A stretch of 35,110 bases of DNA from Bacteroidota bacterium (GTDB lineage: Bacteria > Bacteroidota > Bacteroidia > Flavobacteriales_F > PHOS-HE28), in contig JAFEAI010000275.1 in the NCBI GenBank assembly GCA_018266475.1, forward strand, positions 1-35,110. Reading direction: 5' to 3'. The notes under the pieces were generated by a model. That model saw only the letters and a program-made list of their open reading frames with translations, did no database searches and had not been told where the DNA came from. Position numbers and translations under genes: made by a program. Below, piece after piece: positions 10,482-34,953 of the stretch. Position 1 is the first letter of the stretch, and the number at the start of each line of letters is the position of its first letter.

Positions 10482-10516
10482 AGAAGAGATGAAGTGAAGG
10501 AGGAACTCCAAGCTTT

Positions 10517-10612
10517 CTTCACCTCTTCACCTCTTCACCTCTTCACCTCTTCACCTCTTCACCTCTTCACCCCTTCATCTCTTCACCTCTTCACCTCTTC
10601 ACCTCTTCACAC
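10517..10612 (+). repeat. 8-bp tandem repeat, 12 units of CTTCACCT, in the copA leader
   Basis: Twelve consecutive 8-bp units run to one base before the copA ATG; nine match CTTCACCT exactly, and units 7, 8 and 12 differ slightly. A purine-rich stretch at 10479-10500 (GTGAAGAAGAGATGAAGTGAAG) is nearly its reverse complement, so the leader can fold into a long hairpin. Unit-number changes would alter the leader length and, because 8 is not a multiple of 3, the frame of any upstream start such as the GTG at 10494. Confidence 0.85.
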
Positions 10613-10613
10613 C

Positions 10614-12953
10614 ATGACCCAGATCAAACAAACCTTCCCCGTCACCGGCATGACCTGCGCCAGTTGCGTGCTCCACGTGGAGAAGGCGCTGAAGGCGGAA
10701 CCTGGCGTGGAGGACGTGAGCGTGAACCTGGCCACCAACACCGCGCAGGTGAGCTGGCAGCAAGGCCGCACCGACAGCCAGCACCTGAAGCAGGCCGTGC
10801 GCAACGCGGGCTACGATCTGCTGGTGACCGATGAGGGCGACGCCGTGGCCGAGGCGGAGAAAATCCAGGCCGAGCGGTTGCGCGGCTTGAAACGCAAGCT
10901 GATCGCCTCGCTGGTGCTGAGCATCCCCCTGGTGGTCATCGGCATGTTCCTCATGCACGAGCCTTGGGCCAACCTCACCATGTGGGCCTTGAGCACGCCG
11001 GTGGTGCTGCTCTTCGGACGGCAATTCTTCGTCAACGCCTGGAAGCAGGCCAAGCACCGCACGGCCAACATGGACACGCTGGTGGCGCTGAGTACCGGCG
11101 TGGCCTACCTCTTCAGCGTATTCAACATGGCGTGGCCGGACTTCTGGACCAGCCGCGGACTGGAGCCGCACGTGTACTTCGAGGCGGCGGCGGTGATCAT
11201 CACCTTCATCCTGCTGGGCAAATTCCTGGAAGAGCGCGCCAAGGCCGGCACCAGCAGCGCCATCAAGAAGCTCATGGGCCTGCGCCCCAACACCGTGCTG
11301 CGCGAGGCCGCCGACGGCACCACGCGCGAGGTGCCCATCGCCGACATCAACGTGGACGACCTCTTGGTGGTGCGCCCCGGCGAAAGCATCGCGGTGGACG
11401 GCGAGGTGGTGGGCGGCGAGAGCTATGTGGACGAGAGCATGCTCAGCGGCGAGCCCGTGCCCGTGGCCAAGACCGCCGGTGCGTCGTTGCTGGCGGGCAC
11501 CATCAACCAGAAGGGCAGCCTGCGGATGCGCGCGCAGAAGGTGGGCGCGGCCACGCTGCTGGCGCAGATCGTGCGCACTGTGCAGGAGGCGCAAGGCAGC
11601 AAGGCCCCCGTGCAGAAGCTCGTGGACAAGGTGGCGGCGGTCTTCGTGCCCGTGGTGATGGGCATCGCGCTGCTCAGCGCCATCGCCTGGTGGATCTTCG
11701 GCGGCGAGCACGCCTTCACCCAAGGGCTGCTCGCGCTCGTCACCGTGCTGGTGATCGCTTGCCCCTGCGCGCTGGGACTGGCCACGCCCACGGCCATCAT
11801 GGCCGGCATGGGCAAGGGCGCCGAGAACGGCATCCTGATCAAGGACGCCGAGAGCCTGGAGCGCGCGCGCCACATCACGGCGATCGTGCTGGACAAGACC
11901 GGCACCATCACCGAAGGCAAGCCCGAGGTGCAGGAGGCCGTAGGATTGGACGATGCCGAAGCCACGGCAGCATTGTACGCCATCGAATCAAGATCGGAAC
12001 ATCCGCTGGCGGAAGCGGTGGTGCGGTACTTGAATGCGGGTGAAAGGCGAATAGTGAATAGTGAACGGACAACATCGCTCGGCACCATCCACCATTCACC
12101 CACCACCATTCACCATTCACCAACCACCATTCACCATTCACCAACCACCATTCACCATTCACCAACCACCATTCACCATTCACCCATCACCGCCTTCGAA
12201 AGCCTCACCGGCAAAGGCGCCTCCGCCACCATCGCCGGCACCACCTGGCTCGTGGGCAACCGCCGCCTGCTGGAGGAGCACGGCATCGGCATCACCGGCG
12301 CATGGCGCGAACACGAGAAACGCTGGCAGGAACACGCCCACACCGTGATCTGGCTCGCCGACGGCACCACCGTGCGCGCCGCATTGGCCATCGCGGACAA
12401 GATCAAGCCCACCGCCGCAGAGGCCATTGCCCGTCTGAAGAAGGCCGGCATCAAGGTGTACATGCAGACCGGCGACGCGCGCCGCACCGCGCAGGCCGTG
12501 GCCCAGGCCGTGGGCATCGACGACTTCCGCAGCGAGGTGCTGCCCAAGGACAAGCGCGCCTTCGTGGAGGGCCTGCAGCAGCAAGGGCACGTGGTGGCCA
12601 TGGTGGGCGACGGCATCAACGACAGCGAGGCCCTCGCCAAGGCCGACGTGAGCATCGCCATGGGCAAAGGCAGCGACATCGCCATGGACGTGGCCCGCAT
12701 GACGCTCATCAGCACCGACCTCAACGCCATCCCGCGCGCCATCACCCTCTCGCGCAAGACCGTCAACCTCATCCGCCAGAACCTCTTCTGGGCCTTCATC
12801 TACAACATCATCGGCATCCCCATCGCCGCCGGGGTGCTCTACCCGTTCAACGGTTTTCTTTTGGATCCGATGATCGCGGGCGCGGCGATGGCGCTGAGCA
12901 GCGTGAGCGTGGTGAGCAATAGCTTGCGGTTGAGGTGGGCGAGGTTGGGTTGA
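10614..12953 (+). CDS. copA: Copper-translocating P1B-type ATPase
   Basis: A 779-residue P-type ATPase. The start at 10614 (MTQIKQTFPVTGMTC) is chosen because the frame upstream is only tandem repeat. One N-terminal HMA domain carries CASC at 15-18. The TM6 CPC motif is at 383-385 (IACPCALG), the phosphorylation site DKTGTITEGKP has Asp427, the SEHPLAEAV nucleotide-site motif is near 463 and GDGINDSEALA near 665. CPC plus the C-terminal [14 protein letters not shown] segment fit the Cu(I)-exporting P1B-1 subgroup. It moves Cu(I) from cytosol to periplasm. Odd point: residues 490-524 are five TTIHHSP repeats inserted in the nucleotide-binding domain between the HP motif and the next core strand. 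The last 209 bp are duplicated at 34742-34953. The gene converges on KilA-N with only 4 bp between the stops. Confidence 0.93.
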   Translation: MTQIKQTFPVTGMTCASCVLHVEKALKAEPGVEDVSVNLATNTAQVSWQQGRTDSQHLKQAVRNAGYDLLVTDEGDAVAEAEKIQAERLRGLKRKLIASLVLSIPLVVIGMFLMHEPWANLTMWALSTPVVLLFGRQFFVNAWKQAKHRTANMDTLVALSTGVAYLFSVFNMAWPDFWTSRGLEPHVYFEAAAVIITFILLGKFLEERAKAGTSSAIKKLMGLRPNTVLREAADGTTREVPIADINVDDLLVVRPGESIAVDGEVVGGESYVDESMLSGEPVPVAKTAGASLLAGTINQKGSLRMRAQKVGAATLLAQIVRTVQEAQGSKAPVQKLVDKVAAVFVPVVMGIALLSAIAWWIFGGEHAFTQGLLALVTVLVIACPCALGLATPTAIMAGMGKGAENGILIKDAESLERARHITAIVLDKTGTITEGKPEVQEAVGLDDAEATAALYAIESRSEHPLAEAVVRYLNAGERRIVNSERTTSLGTIHHSPTTIHHSPTTIHHSPTTIHHSPTTIHHSPITAFESLTGKGASATIAGTTWLVGNRRLLEEHGIGITGAWREHEKRWQEHAHTVIWLADGTTVRAALAIADKIKPTAAEAIARLKKAGIKVYMQTGDARRTAQAVAQAVGIDDFRSEVLPKDKRAFVEGLQQQGHVVAMVGDGINDSEALAKADVSIAMGKGSDIAMDVARMTLISTDLNAIPRAITLSRKTVNLIRQNLFWAFIYNIIGIPIAAGVLYPFNGFLLDPMIAGAAMALSSVSVVSNSLRLRWARLG
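12081..12185 (+). repeat. In-frame 21-bp tandem repeat (5 x TTIHHSP) inside copA
   Basis: Five 21-bp units built from ACCATTCACCATTCACC-like sequence encode one GTIHHSP and four TTIHHSP heptads. Just upstream (12049-12066) GAATAGTGAATAGTGAAC is a near reverse complement of the unit, so the insert has an inverted arm as in the copA leader. The copies are almost identical, indicating recent expansion. Confidence 0.9.
12745..12953 (+). repeat. Direct repeat, left copy (3' end of copA)
   Basis: This 209-bp segment at the end of copA recurs at 34742-34953 in the same orientation with about eight substitutions and a small indel just before the stop. Homology starts abruptly at CCCTCTCGCGCAAGACC in both copies. 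Confidence 0.93.
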
Positions 12954-13901: not shown

Positions 13902-14078
13902 GGGCGTGCCCCCTCGCCGCCCGCCATGCCACGCGCGGGGTCGGGCCATCCGCTATAGCCCCGGCCGTCCGCGCCGCGCGGGTGGCGCTCCGGGGGCACC
14001 TCGTGCCTCGGTGCCTCCTCGCTGCACACCCGCGCAAGGCGCTTTCGGCCGGGGGCTGCCGCTGCTGTCCCTCACGCG
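13902..14078 (+). repeat. Structured dispersed intergenic repeat, copy 1
   Basis: This shares four conserved blocks, in order, with 32572-32776: GGGCGTGCCCCC; GGGGTCGGG followed by TCCGCTATAGCC; GCCTCCTCG with TGCAC and CGCAAGGC; and GGGCTGCCGCTGC ending CCCTCACGC. The stretches between blocks differ in sequence but are GC-rich and self-complementary, as in an RNA or DNA with conserved junctions and variable stems. It lies in the 714-bp gap between KilA-N and the exonuclease gene. No coding potential is evident. Confidence 0.7.
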
Positions 14079-18122: not shown

Positions 18123-21919
<3,797 letters not shown>

Positions 21920-21923
<4 letters not shown>

Positions 21924-23160: not shown

Positions 23161-23195
23161 AACCAACAACCAACAACCAACAACCAAAAACCAAA
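23161..23195 (+). repeat. 7-bp tandem repeat, 5 units of AACCAAC/AACCAAA
   Basis: Three AACCAAC and two AACCAAA units stand between the cusC stop and the ATG at 23201. This is a simple-sequence leader like those before copA. Confidence 0.85.
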
Positions 23196-23200
23196 CAACG

Positions 23201-23612: not shown

Positions 23613-24899
23613 ATGACTACCAAGTCTTTCTTCTCCCGTTACCGCACCGCGTTCATTGTCGGCATCGCCCTCATCGCAGGGCTCTTGCTCGGCAGGGCCT
23701 TCTTCGGCGGCGGTTCTTCCGGATCATCCGCAGCGGCCCATGAGCACCATGGTGAAACGGGCCAGATATGGACCTGCTCCATGCATCCGCAGATCCGCAT
23801 GAACGAGCCCGGCTCCTGCCCTATCTGCGGCATGGACCTCATCCCGCTTGCCTCCATGGAGGAGGATATGGACCCGATGTCCGTTCACATGACGGCCAGT
23901 GCCATGAAGCTCGCAAGCGTGCAGACCATGGTGGTGGGCACGGGCGGAGGTGCGGGCAGCCTGCGCCTGACCGGAAAGGTGGTGCCGGATGAACGGCGCG
24001 TGTATGCACAGGCCTCGCACGTGGCGGGGCGGGTGGAGGAATTGCTGGTGAACTTCACCGGCGAGACCGTGCAGAAAGGACAGGTCCTGGCGCGGGTGTT
24101 CTCTCCCGAGCTGGTGACCGCGCAGGAGGAATTGCTGGAAGCCCACCGCGTGCGCGAAGCGCAGCCTTACCTGTACGCCGCGGCGCGCGGAAAGCTGCGC
24201 AACTGGAAGCTGAGCGATGCACAGATCGATGCGATCGTAGCGGCGGGAGCAGCGAACGGTGTGATCGCGATCCTGGCGGATGTAAGCGGCGTGGTGGTGG
24301 AAAAGAAAACGGACCTGGGCGACTACCTGAAGCGCGGCGACGTGCTCTACGAAGTGGCCGACCTGAGCCAGCTATGGGTGCAGTTCGACCTCTACGAGAG
24401 CGACCTGGGCAGCACCCGGAAGGGCGATACCATCCAGTTCACCGTGCGCTCCCTGCCCGGCAAGACCTTCAGGGGCCGCATCACCTTCATCGATCCCATG
24501 GTGGACCCCGCAACACGCGTGGCCCGCGCCCGGGTGGAGCTGAACGATCCGCAAGGGGCGTTGAAACCGGGCATGTTCGCCATCGGCACCGTGCAGGCGA
24601 AGCACCTGCATGGCGATACCAAGGCCTTGGTGGTCCCACGCACGGCCGTGCTCTGGACCGGCCCGCGCTCGGTGGTGTACGTCCGTGTGGGCGAAGGGCA
24701 GTTCCGCCTGCGCGAGGTGGTGCTGGGCGCTGCCATGGGCGATGATGTGATGATCGCCTCCGGCCTGAAAGCAGGAGAAGAGATCGTGGTCCATGGCACC
24801 TTCACAGTGGATGCCGCAGCTCAATTGAGCGGCGCACCCAGCATGATGTCGCCGCAAGGTGGTGCCATGCCTGCGGGGCATGACCATGGGAACATGTGA
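23613..24899 (+). CDS. cusB: CusB-type RND periplasmic adaptor with N-terminal metal-binding domain
   Basis: A 428-residue membrane-fusion protein. An N-terminal anchor (FIVGIALIAGLLLGRAFF) is followed by a His-containing linker and a heavy-metal-binding domain, IWTCSMHPQIRMNEPGSCP then CGMDLIPL, at about 54-82. The barrel-sandwich and hairpin regions follow: VAGRVEELLVNFTGETVQKG, FSPELVTAQEEL, and a second lipoyl half with IAILADVSGVVVEKK. The tail GGAMPAGHDHGNM is Met/His-rich. It bridges the inner-membrane permease and the outer-membrane duct and hands over metal. Gene order here is A-C-lipoprotein-B, unlike the usual C-B-A of cus operons. The 154-bp gap before it could hold a promoter, but none was recognised. 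Confidence 0.92.
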   Translation: MTTKSFFSRYRTAFIVGIALIAGLLLGRAFFGGGSSGSSAAAHEHHGETGQIWTCSMHPQIRMNEPGSCPICGMDLIPLASMEEDMDPMSVHMTASAMKLASVQTMVVGTGGGAGSLRLTGKVVPDERRVYAQASHVAGRVEELLVNFTGETVQKGQVLARVFSPELVTAQEELLEAHRVREAQPYLYAAARGKLRNWKLSDAQIDAIVAAGAANGVIAILADVSGVVVEKKTDLGDYLKRGDVLYEVADLSQLWVQFDLYESDLGSTRKGDTIQFTVRSLPGKTFRGRITFIDPMVDPATRVARARVELNDPQGALKPGMFAIGTVQAKHLHGDTKALVVPRTAVLWTGPRSVVYVRVGEGQFRLREVVLGAAMGDDVMIASGLKAGEEIVVHGTFTVDAAAQLSGAPSMMSPQGGAMPAGHDHGNM

Positions 24900-29250: not shown

Positions 29251-30102
29251 ATGACGATGAAGAGCATCTTCCTGAACTTTTGGGCCTTGACCCTTTCACT
29301 AAGCGCGAGCGCCCAAATACCTCATGCAAATACAACCACCATGGAAGTGGACGGCAACTGCGGCATGTGCAAGAAGACCATCGAGGCTGCGGCGCTCGTG
29401 AAGCACGAGGCCATGGCCAGCTGGAACAGTGACACCAAGGTCGCCACCATCACCTACGACAGCGCGCGTACGAATGTGGACGCCGTGCTGAAGCGGATCG
29501 CGCTGGCGGGATACGACAACGCGAGCTACCTCGCGCCCGATGCCGCCTACGCCGCGTTGCCCGGCTGCTGCCAGTACGATCGCACGCTGAAGAAAGCACC
29601 CGTCGCGGCCGCGGAAGTTCATGACCACGCTGGGCACCATGCGGAAACCGATCAAGTGGTAGCACCGGCCGCAAACAATCCGTTGGCGCCGGTGTTCACG
29701 GCCTACTTCAAACTGAAGGATGCACTCGTGGCCTCCGATGCCGCACAGGCCCAGGACCAAGCGGCCGCACTGAAGAATGCCGTGGATGCCGTGGACATGT
29801 CCGCGCTGGGCCACGACGTGCATACCGTGTGGATGCGGGTGATGGGGCCGCTCGCGGACCGTTCCGGAAGCATCGCGAACACCGTCAAGCTGGACGAGCA
29901 GCGCAAGGCGTTCATGCAACTGACCACACCGCTTTCGGAACTGGCCAAGGCCGCGCCCGGGGCCGTCCCCGTGTACCTCGCCCATTGCCCCATGTATCAA
30001 GGTGGCGCCGATTGGCTCAGCTTGGAAAAGGAGATCAAGAACCCATTCTACGGCAGCATGATGCTCACCTGCGGCAGCGTGAAGGAGACGATCGTGAAGT
30101 GA
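29251..30102 (+). CDS. Periplasmic HMA-DUF3347 copper-binding protein
   Basis: A 283-residue protein from MTMKSIFLNFWALTL; a second ATG two codons on is equally possible. The signal peptide ends near SLSASAQ. An HMA domain follows with MEVDGNCGMCKKTIEAAA (CxxC), so this is a periplasmic HMA rather than a cytosolic one. After a His-containing linker (EVHDHAGHHAE) the C-terminal half, from NNPLAPVFTAYFKLKDALV to AHCPMYQGGADWLSLEKEI and LTCGSVKE, is a DUF3347 domain. DUF3347 occurs in Bacteroidota copper loci and in CusB C-termini. It probably binds Cu in the periplasm and works with the oxidase gene 20 bp downstream. Confidence 0.88.
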   Translation: MTMKSIFLNFWALTLSLSASAQIPHANTTTMEVDGNCGMCKKTIEAAALVKHEAMASWNSDTKVATITYDSARTNVDAVLKRIALAGYDNASYLAPDAAYAALPGCCQYDRTLKKAPVAAAEVHDHAGHHAETDQVVAPAANNPLAPVFTAYFKLKDALVASDAAQAQDQAAALKNAVDAVDMSALGHDVHTVWMRVMGPLADRSGSIANTVKLDEQRKAFMQLTTPLSELAKAAPGAVPVYLAHCPMYQGGADWLSLEKEIKNPFYGSMMLTCGSVKETIVK

Positions 30103-30116
30103 GACAAGAACCTTTC

Positions 30117-30209
30117 GACAGGATGAGCAGGATGTACAGGATAGAGCTATGCATGGAGGACTTTGGTGAACTTCCGTGCATTCATCCTGTACATCCTGCA
30201 CATCCTGTC
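30117..30209. repeat. Dispersed inverted repeat (CAGGATGTACAGGAT family) over the oxidase start
   Basis: The left arm 30117-30142 and right arm 30184-30209 are 26 bp each, reverse complements with one mismatch, around a 41-nt loop whose ends (ATGCATGGAGG / CTTCCGTGCAT) also pair partly. The unit contains CAGGATGTACAGGAT. I recognise this as a common dispersed Bacteroidota intergenic repeat (recollection). Confidence 0.88.
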
Positions 30210-32528
30210 AACGTATTGATCCTGTTCCTTGCCTTCTTGTCGTTCTCGTCCGTGCGCGCCCAGGTCCATGTACCGGGCACCACTGTCCCGAAAGGCGACT
30301 TCATCCCGAAGGTGACGCGCTATGACCTGTACGTCACCGACACCGTGCTGAACTACACCGGCAAGGACGTGCCCGCCATCGCGGTGAACGGGCAAACGCC
30401 CATGCCCACACTGTACTTCACCGAGGGCGATACGGCGATGATCGTGCTGCACAACCGCCTGAAAAAGGGCGAGACCTCCCTGCATTGGCACGGCCTGATC
30501 CTGCCCAACGTGTACGACGGCGTGCCCTGGCTCACCACGCCGCCGATCAAGGCCGGGGAGAGCTACACCTACAAATTCCCGCTGAAGCAGCACGGCACCT
30601 ATTGGTACCACTCGCACACCATGCTGCAGGAGCAGAGCGGCATGAACGGCGCGCTGATCATCCACCCGCGCCGACCCGATACCATCCCCGAGTACACGCT
30701 GCTGCTCACCGATTGGACCGACATGAAGCCCAGCGAGGTGGACCGCCTGCTGCACAACGGCAGTGACTGGTTTGCCATCCAAAAGAACAAGCTGCGGCCC
30801 GGCACCGTGCAGAGCTACAGCGACGCCATCCAAGCCGGCGCGCTGGGCACCAAGCTGGGCAACGAGTGGAAGCGCATGCACGCCATGGACGTCAGCGATG
30901 TGTACTACGACCGCTTCCTCACCAATGGCAAGGTGGAAGATGCCGCACCGCGGTTCAAGGGCGGGCAACAGGTGCGGCTGCGCATCATCAACGGCAATTC
31001 GTCCACCTACTTCTGGATCCAGTACGCCGGCGGAAAGATGCAGGTGGTGGCTACCGACGGCGCCGATGTGGAACCCGTGTCCGTGGACCGCTTCATCATG
31101 GGCGTGGCCGAAACCTACGACGTGATCGTAACGCTCCCCGCCGACAGCACCGCCTACCAACTATTGGCCACCGCCGAGGACCGCACGCGTTCAACATCCC
31201 TTTGGCTGGGCAACGGCATCCGGCAGCTCGCACAACCGTTGGGTCCGCTGGACTACTTCGCCGGGATGAAGATGATGAACGGCATGATGAAGATGAACGG
31301 CGACCTGGATGACATGGGCATGAAGATGGGCCTCCAGCGCATGGACATGAACGAGGTGATGTATCCGGAGATCACCGGTGGAAGAAGTGAAGAAGGGAAG
31401 AAGGTGAAGGAGGTGAGGGAGGGAGCGCGTCGCTCCGCTCGCGATGACGGGAAGGGAAAGGAGGTGAAGAAGCAACCGGGCCATGAAGCGCATGCCGCAG
31501 CATCGAGTACGGAGCGCCCGGTGACATTGAACTATGCGATGCTGCGCGCGCCGGAACCCACCACCCTGCCGCCGGGACCGCTGAAGGAGCTGCACTTTGA
31601 GCTAACCGGCAACATGAACCGCTACCTGTGGTCCATCGACGGAAAGACGATCTCCGAAGCGGACAAGATCAAGATCCACAAGGGCGAGAACGTGCGCCTG
31701 ATCCTGCACAACAACAGCATGATGCGCCACCCCATGCACCTGCACGGCCATTTTTTCCGCGTGCTGAACGGCCAGGGCGCCTACGCCCCGCTGAAGAACG
31801 TGCTGGACATCATGCCCATGGAGACCGACACCATCGAATTCGCCGGTACCGAAAGCGGCGACTGGTTCTTCCACTGCCACATCCTCTACCACATGATGAG
31901 CGGCATGGGCCGCGTGTTCAGCTATGCGGACACGGCAACCAACCCTGAACTCGGTGACCCCAAGCGTGCCTGGCGCAACTTCCTGAAGGAGGACAAGCAC
32001 TGGCACCTCATGGCGCAGAACGACTTCGCCACCAACGGACTGGACGGCGAACTGATGCTGATGAACAAACGCTGGGAGCTGCAGACGGAATGGCGGCTTG
32101 GCTACACCAAGGAGCACGGCCAGGAAGTGGAGGCCCGCTTCGGCCGCTACGTGGACCGCATGCAATGGCTCTTCCCCTACATCGGCGCGGAATGGCGCTC
32201 GCACCCCATGGACATGGACATCCACGAGGACAACCTTTTCGGTGAGCCCAACACCTGGGACGACCGCAAAGCGCTCAACATCGGCCTGCGCTACACACTG
32301 CCCTTCCTCCTGGTGCTGGACGGCCACATCGACACGGACGGCCAGCTGCGCGCTTCGCTGATGCGCGAGGACATCGCCCTCACCCCGCGCCTGCGCATGG
32401 ACCTGATGGGCAACACCGACCTGGAATACATGGCCGGCCTGCGCTACGTGCTGAACAAGACCTTCTCCCTACGCACCCACTACGACAGCGACATGGGCCT
32501 GGGCGTGGGACTGACCTTGACCTATTGA
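30123..32528 (+). CDS. CopA-type multicopper oxidase with CopB-like C-terminal region
   Basis: A protein of up to 801 residues. The start is uncertain: ATGs at 30123, 30132 and 30153 lie inside a dispersed repeat, and a TTG at 30216 gives a short signal peptide (ILFLAFLSFSSVRAQ). All four copper blocks are present: LHWHGLILPN, TYWYHSHTMLQ, HPMHLHGHFFRVLN and WFFHCHILYHMMSGMG. A Met-rich stretch (MKMMNGMMKMNGD) typical of CopA/CueO-like oxidases precedes the C-terminal cupredoxin. After the oxidase, from about KDKHWHLMAQNDFATNGLDG to the end at LGVGLTLTY, the sequence resembles the CopB (PF05275) outer-membrane barrel: EHGQEVEARFGRYVD, WLFPYIGAEWRSHP. It would oxidise Cu(I) in the periplasm. 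An in-frame Lys/Glu/Arg-rich linker (31379-31482) looks like inserted intergenic repeat. Confidence 0.88.
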   Translation: MSRMYRIELCMEDFGELPCIHPVHPAHPVNVLILFLAFLSFSSVRAQVHVPGTTVPKGDFIPKVTRYDLYVTDTVLNYTGKDVPAIAVNGQTPMPTLYFTEGDTAMIVLHNRLKKGETSLHWHGLILPNVYDGVPWLTTPPIKAGESYTYKFPLKQHGTYWYHSHTMLQEQSGMNGALIIHPRRPDTIPEYTLLLTDWTDMKPSEVDRLLHNGSDWFAIQKNKLRPGTVQSYSDAIQAGALGTKLGNEWKRMHAMDVSDVYYDRFLTNGKVEDAAPRFKGGQQVRLRIINGNSSTYFWIQYAGGKMQVVATDGADVEPVSVDRFIMGVAETYDVIVTLPADSTAYQLLATAEDRTRSTSLWLGNGIRQLAQPLGPLDYFAGMKMMNGMMKMNGDLDDMGMKMGLQRMDMNEVMYPEITGGRSEEGKKVKEVREGARRSARDDGKGKEVKKQPGHEAHAAASSTERPVTLNYAMLRAPEPTTLPPGPLKELHFELTGNMNRYLWSIDGKTISEADKIKIHKGENVRLILHNNSMMRHPMHLHGHFFRVLNGQGAYAPLKNVLDIMPMETDTIEFAGTESGDWFFHCHILYHMMSGMGRVFSYADTATNPELGDPKRAWRNFLKEDKHWHLMAQNDFATNGLDGELMLMNKRWELQTEWRLGYTKEHGQEVEARFGRYVDRMQWLFPYIGAEWRSHPMDMDIHEDNLFGEPNTWDDRKALNIGLRYTLPFLLVLDGHIDTDGQLRASLMREDIALTPRLRMDLMGNTDLEYMAGLRYVLNKTFSLRTHYDSDMGLGVGLTLTY
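31379..31482 (+). repeat. Low-complexity insert in the oxidase coding sequence
   Basis: A GAAG/GTGAAGG-rich run encodes EEGKKVKEVREGARR and continues. It embeds GTCGCTCCGCTCGCGATGAC, a motif resembling the dispersed repeat with a CGTCGCT-CGCTCGC-ATGACG core often seen between Bacteroidota genes. The reading frame is kept. It separates the Met-rich segment from the C-terminal cupredoxin. Confidence 0.6.
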
Positions 32529-32571
32529 AAGCGGCCAGCGCATGCACGGTGGTGCATCGCAGCGATCAGTT

Positions 32572-32776
32572 GGGCGTGCCCCCGGCTGTCATGCTGGGCA
32601 AAGCCAAAGCAGGCAGCCGGGGTCGGGTGCTCCGCTATAGCCGGTTTTGTCGCGGCCAGCGGTCGCGGCACTGCGGGGTCTGCTCCCCCGGATGAACTCC
32701 GGGGCTCGCAGCCTCCTCGTTGCACGGGCCCGCAAGGCCGCGCCTGCACCGGGCTGCCGCTGCGCCCCCTCACGCA
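32572..32776 (+). repeat. Structured dispersed intergenic repeat, copy 2
   Basis: The same four conserved blocks as 13902-14078, in the same order and orientation, with different variable segments. Between block 1 and block 2 here a hairpin closes with GGCTG...CAGCC. It fills most of the 337-bp gap between the oxidase stop and the 32866 gene. No protein-coding potential was recognised in the gap. Confidence 0.7.
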
Positions 32777-32837
32777 GGCCACGCCAACCTCAGCGCCGCA
32801 TTCCAATCCGCTCGCAACAACCCGGCTTTACCTTGAT

Positions 32838-32865: not shown

Positions 32866-33462
32866 ATGAACGCTCCTGCACCCTTTTCCCAAATGCTCCG
32901 CACGCAACGCGAAGCCGCAGGCCTCACCTTGCAAGCAGTGGCCGCCAAGCTGAAGGTGGACCTCAGCTTAGTGAGCAAGTGGGAGCGCGGTGTCCGCAAG
33001 CCGTCCCGCGCACAGGTCATCGCACTGGCCCGCGTCCTGAAGGCCGATGCCAACGCGTTCCTCATGGCATGGCTCCGTGATGCCGCCGTGTATGCCGTGG
33101 GCGATGATGAGCTGGCCCTGGAAGCCTTGAAGGCCGCCGAGGCGCAGGTGGCCTACAAGCTGTTCCAGCAGCAGGACCGCAAGGCCATCGTCCGCAAGCT
33201 GAGATCCGGCCTGGCCCGTTTTCCCAAGGTGCGTAAAGCGTGGCTCTTCGGCTCCTTCGCCCGAAAGGACGACAAACCCGGCAGCGACATCGACCTGGCC
33301 ATCGAGGTGCAGGATCCCTTCAGCTATTTCGACCTGGCCGATGTGCAGTACCAATTGGAGCAGCTCACGGGCCGCAAGGTGGACGTGGGCTTCATGGATG
33401 CCTTCCGGCCCCACGTGCGTGCGCGTATCGAACCCGATCTGCAGCTGATCCATGGAGCATGA
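32866..33462 (+). CDS. XRE HTH-MNT nucleotidyltransferase fusion (antitoxin, MntA-like)
   Basis: A 198-residue protein from the ATG at 32866. Residues 8-65 form an XRE helix-turn-helix (LRTQREAAGLTLQAVAAKL, SLVSKWERGVRKPS). Residues about 115-198 form a minimal nucleotidyltransferase with WLFGSFARKDDKPGSDIDL, i.e. GS followed by DxD, plus a third acidic strand at KVDVGFMD. In HEPN/MNT type VII toxin-antitoxin systems, MntA adenylylates a tyrosine of the HEPN toxin and so silences it. The HTH fusion would add autoregulation of the operon. The next gene overlaps by 11 bp. Confidence 0.88.
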   Translation: MNAPAPFSQMLRTQREAAGLTLQAVAAKLKVDLSLVSKWERGVRKPSRAQVIALARVLKADANAFLMAWLRDAAVYAVGDDELALEALKAAEAQVAYKLFQQQDRKAIVRKLRSGLARFPKVRKAWLFGSFARKDDKPGSDIDLAIEVQDPFSYFDLADVQYQLEQLTGRKVDVGFMDAFRPHVRARIEPDLQLIHGA

Positions 33463-33802
33463 CCGCGCTGATAGCCTGCCCGCATTGCAGCGCATGCGGA
33501 TCACGATCGCTCGGATAAAGGTCCACATACAGGGACGCTCGATGGAGCAATTCCTGGCAGACAAGGTCCTGTGCGATGCCGTGCTGATGCAACTGAGCGT
33601 CCTCGGCGAGGAAGTGCGCCGCGTGGATCCGGACCTGCTCAACAAGTACGATTACCCGTGGCACAAAGTGCGCGCGCAGCGCAACGTCATCGTGCATGAC
33701 TACTTCGGCATCCGCCTGCCATCCATCTGGGCCAATGTGCAGCAAGACCTCGGCCCTTTGGATGAACTGCTGGAACGCATCATCCAAAATGAATTCTCCT
33801 GA
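33452..33802 (+). CDS. HepT-like HEPN domain toxin (DUF86)
   Basis: A 116-residue all-helical protein. The HEPN RNase motif is RNVIVHDYFG (Rx4HxY), with the Tyr two residues after the His that is the AMPylation target in HepT proteins. Flanking sequence (FLADKVLCDAVLMQLSVLGE, KYDYPWHKVRAQRN) fits DUF86/HepT throughout, and the length is typical. It should act as an RNase toxin neutralised by the HTH-MNT protein. The start ATG at 33452 overlaps the antitoxin gene by 11 bp. Confidence 0.88.
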   Translation: MEHDRADSLPALQRMRITIARIKVHIQGRSMEQFLADKVLCDAVLMQLSVLGEEVRRVDPDLLNKYDYPWHKVRAQRNVIVHDYFGIRLPSIWANVQQDLGPLDELLERIIQNEFS

Positions 33803-34580: not shown

Positions 34581-34741
34581 GCCTATGCCTTCACAGCGTT
34601 GAACGATCCACGACGCTGGATGCGATCGAACCGGCACCTACCATAAGGTTCGTCATCTCTTGAATGAGGATCGGATGTTGATCGGGGTTCTTTGGTTCCT
34701 GGTTCCGGTTTCCACATCGTTGGTCGGCAGGAGCGCCTGCG

Positions 34742-34953
34742 CCCTCTCGCGCAAGACCGTCGCCCTCATCCGCCAGAACCTCTTCTGGGCCTTCATCTAC
34801 AACATCATCGGCATCCCCATCGCCGCCGGGGTGCTCTACCCGATCAACGGTTTCCTTTTGGATCCGATGATCGCTGGCGCGGCGATGGCCTTGAGCAGCG
34901 TGAGCGTGGTGAGCAATAGCTTGCGGTTGAGGTGGGCGGGGTTGGAAGGGTGA
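34742..34953 (+). pseudogene. Duplicated 3' end of copA (right copy of the direct repeat)
   Basis: It encodes [20 protein letters not shown] to the stop, the last two membrane helices of the CopA-type ATPase, about 96% identical in DNA to 12745-12953. The frame is open from an ATG at 34660, but residues before the junction are unrelated, and no phosphorylation or metal site is present. It is a fragment and cannot be a working ATPase. Confidence 0.9.

Follow-up and report, generated by a model that had tools for sequence, protein, structure and literature searches.

The gene described here probably encodes a PcoA-PcoB fusion, that is, a Sec-exported, outer membrane-anchored copper oxidase coupled to a PcoB-like channel, which would have a single fusion origin and carry a near-neutral insert within its oxidase part. 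It lies in a stretch of 35,110 nt (hereafter the window) from a Bacteroidota bacterium (PHOS-HE28; GCA_018266475.1, contig JAFEAI010000275.1, positions 1-35,110 of the forward strand). The architecture is already in print for Bizionia argentinensis, as is a PcoA-PcoB fusion for Legionella; new here are the spread of the fusion, its link to CopB via intermediates, and its altered export signal.

Sequences and Alignments

The homolog alignment kept 92 rows, leaving out ORFs of ≤700 aa as well as L081, L083, L084, and L089, whose places or genes are already represented by the window, L001, L002, and L005. Tails for the tail HMM were supplied by 89 of the 92 rows (L101, L044, and short tails were dropped). 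Alignment A2 consisted of the window and 69 of 80 related loci (near-copies, L016, and L044 being left out), and alignment A3 of the window and 56 of the 80.

The Fusion Gene and Its Surroundings

The reading frame is open on the + strand from a GTG at 29829 to 32528, and from the ATG at 30123 its product has 801 aa (Table 1). This nominal start codon sits within an inverted repeat with arms of 26 nt, and a copy of one arm (94%) is found at G000:C139:30956-30988. Since the first ~29 codons from the ATG consist of inverted-repeat sequence and the hydrophobic signal peptide comes only after it, the start of the fusion gene is uncertain; a TTG at 30216, immediately 5' of the hydrophobic signal peptide ending VRA/Q, is an alternative candidate.

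Table 1. Coordinates in the window of the fusion gene's parts and of neighboring features.
Feature	Position	Strand	Basis or remark
CusA-type RND efflux pump gene	18123..21923	+	PF00873, E 8.5e-174
CusB-type membrane fusion protein with heavy-metal-binding domain	23613..24899	+	PF16576, PF19335
Upstream gene, HMA-like N-terminal part and DUF3347	29257..30102	+	Pfam
Inverted repeat	30117..30209 (arms 30117-30142 and 30184-30209)	.	Arms 96% complementary; overlaps nominal start
Probable Sec-type signal peptide core (LILFLAFLSFSSVRA/Q)	30216..30260	+	Sequence; without twin-arginine motif
Multicopper oxidase, three cupredoxin domains	30309..31928	+	Pfam PF07732, PF00394, PF07731; TIGR01480; laccase fold
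Conserved Met-rich segment between domains 2 and 3	31254..31378	+	Alignment of 92 homologs
In-frame Lys/Glu/Arg-rich insert, GA-rich satellite-like ends around GAGCGCGTCGCTCCGCTCGCGATGACG core	31379..31482	+	Repeat comparisons; pLDDT
Predicted 12-stranded outer-membrane beta-barrel domain, PcoB/CopB-like	32004..32528	+	AlphaFold2, Foldseek, VIA-align, hhalign

Because its neighbors encode CusA, CusB, and an HMA-DUF3347 protein, copper handling is the likely role of the fusion gene. Synteny extends to an Ornithobacterium plasmid, where the fusion is likewise preceded by a DUF3347 gene.

Several further features were observed in the window. Downstream of the gene, a dispersed repeat (32540-32810) has seven more partial matches in the genome at 73-96% identity, one of them at 14007-14077. 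The overlapping frames 32866-33462 (HTH and nucleotidyltransferase) and 33452-33802 (HepT-like) are a probable MNT-HEPN toxin-antitoxin pair, and a 97-aa ORF at 34660-34953, with no Pfam match, looks by eye like the C-terminus of a copper P-type ATPase. Tandem arrays are present at 12083-12191 (period 7/21, CACCATT) and 23161-23199 (period 7, AACCAAC).

The Oxidase Part

The N-terminal part is a multicopper oxidase (MCO), as an earlier note on this DNA had recognized. In the 801-aa product, Pfam places Cu-oxidase_3 at residues 75-184, Cu-oxidase at 190-351, and Cu-oxidase_2 at 488-602; copper-ligand motifs occur as HWHG, HSH, HPMHLHGH, and HCHILYHM, so that the three cupredoxin domains and ligand motifs by which CopA/PcoA proteins are recognized are both found. 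The score against the NCBIfam model copper_res_A (TIGR01480), 402.4 bits, is under its cut-off of 478.95. The model of the whole protein has a laccase fold (best Z 36.0, rmsd 2.5, 364 aligned). In 13 of 95 fused ORFs (L012, L017, L021, L046, L050, L060, and others), a CPMHP-type heavy-metal-binding motif precedes the oxidase, making a three-part fusion.

Fold and Descent of the Tail

The C-terminal extra part comprises residues ~599-801; the earlier note had rightly seen the oxidase run on into an extension, but put its length at about 180 residues, whereas it is nearer 200. The note had also remarked on an aromatic, barrel-strand-like final residue, and this is a Tyr, shared without exception by the 70 aligned tails. 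An AlphaFold2 model of residues 593-801, with the 70 aligned tails as input, consists of one helix followed by 12 strands (mean pLDDT 83.4, pTM 0.74). When this model was compared with 350,542 PDB chains by Foldseek, PcoB (7PGE) came first (E 7.7e-5) and KdgM next (1.3e-4). VIA-align likewise ranked PcoB first (Z 14.8, rmsd 3.4, 156 aligned), in a tie with OMPLA (Z 14.5) and near Tsx (14.0) and KdgM (13.8), with NanC about as good. A soluble tail unrelated to CopB, named in the earlier note as the outcome that would speak against it, is rejected on the basis of this 12-stranded model with PcoB 7PGE as its top match. The tail is thus predicted to fold as a 12-stranded outer-membrane barrel, a fold that does not by itself single out PcoB.

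The closeness of these scores fits a barrel of other descent (OMPLA-, KdgM-, or generic OMP-like), which would serve as an anchor only, without a copper channel. Family searches are in line with this explanation. OMP_b-brl was the main recurrent Pfam match, in 11 of the 70 tails (best 8.5e-4), and PF05275 (CopB), the profile that the earlier note had proposed for the tail, was absent from it, from the 70 tails (E up to 10), and from the organism's own genome. In G138, a PF05275 match under the cut-off (16.5 bits) fell in a 147-aa ORF that is apparently unrelated by sequence and was not counted. A profile of the close tails found no match among PDB sequences at E up to 10. Furthermore, the acidic copper site of PcoB (D97-E207) is not clearly conserved as judged from the aligned sequences: one Glu was aligned by hhalign (MRED) and varies among tails, and D97 falls outside the aligned part.

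Nevertheless, profile-profile comparison argues against a barrel of other descent and for CopB. Aligned with 17 stand-alone CopBs in hhalign, the close tails alone gave E 0.0095 at a probability of 4%, but after divergent fused tails had been added, E fell to 1e-4 when the window was the query and to 6.9e-7 when the divergent fused protein L175 was (probability 91.9, 134 columns), against 0.12-0.35 for reversed-alignment controls; these E-values refer to single comparisons. The divergent fused proteins came from the phylum survey, and some share genera with stand-alone CopBs (G229 with G082, G094, G108, and G154; G241 with G143). A CopB HMM run over 1455 ORFs placed the 17 CopBs first (of these building sequences, 16 are unbroken and one is short), followed by 16 MCO-type rows that represent 14 different genes, two genes occurring twice and the tail-only remnant L102 being counted. 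The ORF set is rich in MCOs, which favors MCO rows but does not explain why the best HMM stretch falls in the tail in all 16. Two further observations stand against an unrelated barrel: CopA and CopB are adjacent in outgroup loci, and the tails share a conserved SDM turn and conserved strand faces, several strands, most clearly 4, 11, and 12, having one face with greater mean conservation than the other. We therefore consider a barrel of other descent unlikely and descent of the tail from CopB likely, though not proven; the resemblance to CopB claimed in the earlier note is thus supported via the divergent fused tails, despite the PF05275 miss.

The order of the domains also invites comparison with autotransporters, in which case the N-terminal oxidase would exit through the C-terminal 12-stranded barrel and act at the cell surface. 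An N-terminal passenger, a C-terminal 12-stranded barrel, and a helix right before strand 1 agree with this arrangement, and the barrels of EstA, BrkA, and EspP matched at Z 10.7-11.3. However, PcoB scored higher by 3-4 units, the 19 families listed for the 70 tails (E up to 10) include no autotransporter beta-domain family, and the profile link goes to CopB, which makes surface export of this kind very improbable.

Distribution and History of the Fusion

All 80 related loci that were kept align through residue 796-801, a figure biased by their being the best-scoring rows. In a survey of the distribution of the fusion, as the earlier note had suggested, the tail was present in 32 of the 198 phylum genomes drawn; 41 of the 42 tail matches lay in frames of 479-967 aa and the remaining one in a 47-aa frame. 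Stand-alone CopB, recognized by PF05275 above its cut-off, occurred in 15 of 198 phylum genomes, none of them among the 32 with the tail, if both draws of 198 are taken as identical, as the recurring genome handles indicate. The fusion is also carried on Bacteroidota plasmids. The earlier note was correct that the gene departs from the classical arrangement of separate CopA and CopB, which is seen in the outgroup loci as a stand-alone CopB gene immediately after CopA, but the fusion is common in Bacteroidota and already in print.

On a tree built from the oxidase parts of 34 fused, 19 split, and two other proteins (three of the five 'other' MCOs had no usable row), the fused label required one change, and support for one fusion was moderate (78/94; 82% of bootstrap trees).

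Two variants were noted. In G004, a barrel-only remnant (L102/L230; G004:C2:147277-147858) is 87% identical to residues 608-801 and has no oxidase part; the sequence upstream of it is unrelated, which looks like a deletion, and a stretch resembling the 32540-32810 repeat comes after it. Plasmid pILYOP02 of Ilyobacter polytropus (L216) carries the fusion near genes for a two-component system and a periplasmic metal sensor. The I. polytropus plasmid MCO WP_013389237 shares with the window protein a barrel-like tail of ~200 residues and a Sec-type signal, but belongs to the Fusobacteriota, has 675 aa, is encoded on a conjugative plasmid, and sits on a long branch of the tree; the presence of the fusion on this plasmid is likely to reflect transfer between phyla.

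Export Signal

Outer-membrane barrels need Sec, while CopA and CueO travel by the Tat pathway. A twin-arginine motif was found in 17 of 17 unfused CopAs adjoining CopB, and also in a Novosphingobium CopA and a Halomonas plasmid CopA. None of 95 fused ORFs, near-copies included, had a credible Tat motif when the whole N-terminal part was scanned (an earlier scan had covered only the stretch before HWHG in 92 fused ORFs; the N-termini of L002 and L084 were masked), nor did nine further divergent fused proteins. Two pattern matches among the 95 were dismissed by eye, since RRNAM in L004 precedes the first Met and RRLGL in L098 lies in a non-hydrophobic stretch. Most of the 95 have a Sec-type start, with Met followed by hydrophobic residues; three had none by a simple test, two of these being masked. 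TatC is encoded in 197 of 198 genomes, including the organism's own.

Absence of the Tat motif as a mark of the fusion alone was weakened by the other unfused MCOs of these genomes. Most of those scanned, mostly with ~103 residues after HCH, also had no credible Tat motif; in L106, L201, and L206 the pattern occurred as well, at a position judged by eye to be 5' of the likely start, and L214 (16 residues after HCH) has RREFV. Perhaps the Tat/Sec contrast between unfused and fused proteins is a single evolutionary event. In the literature searched we found no published statement of this pattern of Tat in unfused and no Tat in fused proteins. Sec would be expected for an outer-membrane protein such as PcoB (PMC12509749).

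The Insert in the Oxidase Loop

The Lys/Glu/Arg-rich insert reported in the earlier note is present and in frame. It does not, as stated there, place repeat DNA in the linker before the barrel, but lies within the oxidase, in the loop that joins cupredoxin domains 2 and 3. Model residues 377-417, covering the insert region, have pLDDT <50, and across the 92 aligned homologs the loop-bearing stretch is hypervariable, from 47 to 156 aa.

The proposal that the insert is captured repeat holds for its GA-satellite part, which recurs in the genome, and not for its core, which occurs once. The former matches GA-rich arrays of period 8 elsewhere in the organism's own genome, where the octamer-pair pattern has 62 matches against seven for a reversed control; the pattern also occurs in eight other of 39 genomes of the genus, and the second gene copy in G032 has an octamer array in the same oxidase loop. 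A tandem array of period 8 in the window (10516-10610, TCTTCACC) is of the same satellite type. The core, GCGTCGCTCCGCTCGCGATGACG, has one copy in the genome at up to three mismatches, and the insert was consequently rejected as a multi-copy palindromic element of its own genome as far as the core is concerned. A 19-nt part of the core has 11 matches (≤1 mismatch) in six other genomes of the genus, and its control had none.

Rickettsia palindromic elements are a known case of repeats that have entered coding genes in frame, and the insert is like them in this respect, but here only the GA-satellite part recurs in the genome and the palindrome-like core does not. Whether the segment has instead been selected as a functional, Lys/Glu-rich part of the enzyme must be weighed against capture. 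Read on this strand, a pure GA array contains a stop in each of the three frames; the six TGA triplets of the insert are all out of frame, and this preserved frame, together with the uniqueness of the core, would be expected of a selected segment. The hypervariable loop length, the excess of octamer matches over the control, and the array in the same loop of the second G032 copy all point the other way, and we regard a selected function as quite unlikely and the insert as satellite DNA that a disordered loop probably captured as a neutral or near-neutral change.

Comparison With Known Systems and Proposed Mechanism

The same architecture of an MCO with a PcoB-like C-terminus is described for the flavobacterial protein G2EDV6 of B. 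argentinensis, in which a signal peptide and three cupredoxin domains are followed by a porin-like C-terminal region, residues 611-809, that is somewhat similar to PcoB (PMC11213822); a satellite in a linker, Tat versus Sec export, and distribution do not appear in the parts of that account describing the protein. Fused PcoA-PcoB is reported from five Legionella species (PMC3548706), which as described resemble the window protein in having both parts in one chain but belong to the Gammaproteobacteria. In Escherichia coli, PcoA and PcoB (7PGE) are likewise an MCO and a 12-stranded barrel, but separate proteins encoded side by side, for which cooperation has been proposed (PMC9210255), and the D97-E207 site of PcoB is not clearly kept in the window tail. 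Both termini of the E. coli barrel are described as periplasmic, and PcoB is reported to let Cu(II) through when placed in liposomes (PMC9210255). Transport is argued to be uptake in PMC9210255 and efflux in PMC12509749, the latter also reporting that PcoA is stabilized by PcoB.

What the sequences show is the domain architecture, its distribution, the missing Tat motif, and the predicted fold; for the location and orientation of the fused protein, its catalysis, and its channel activity, we infer the following. The Sec signal peptide would deliver the chain, unfolded, to the periplasm, where the C-terminal 12-stranded barrel would be assembled into the outer membrane. The oxidase would then fold and take up copper on the periplasmic side, tethered to the periplasmic N-terminus of the barrel, and would convert Cu(I) to Cu(II) beside a PcoB-like copper channel. 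Such coupling would mirror that of PcoA and PcoB, thought to act elsewhere as separate neighbors. The fusion likely had one origin, within or close to the base of the Bacteroidota lineages sampled, and because it would not be compatible with exporting an already folded oxidase through Tat, the Tat signal would have been replaced.

A broader reading is advanced only tentatively, as something possible that falls short of being probable: one ancient fusion in Bacteroidota would have made a single outer membrane-anchored oxidase-channel and forced the oxidase from Tat to Sec, so that its copper centers must be assembled in the periplasm, and PcoA and PcoB would form a direct complex when unfused too, as the 1:1 covalent pairing would imply. 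How PcoB works with PcoA, and whether it moves copper in or out, is an unsettled question. That a covalent fusion exists in nature, and commonly so among Bacteroidota, speaks for direct contact between the two, and the fused protein could serve structural and flux studies as a single-chain target. The switch from Tat to Sec would be a clear consequence, open to testing, of joining an enzyme to a barrel, and it raises the question of how the oxidase becomes loaded with copper.
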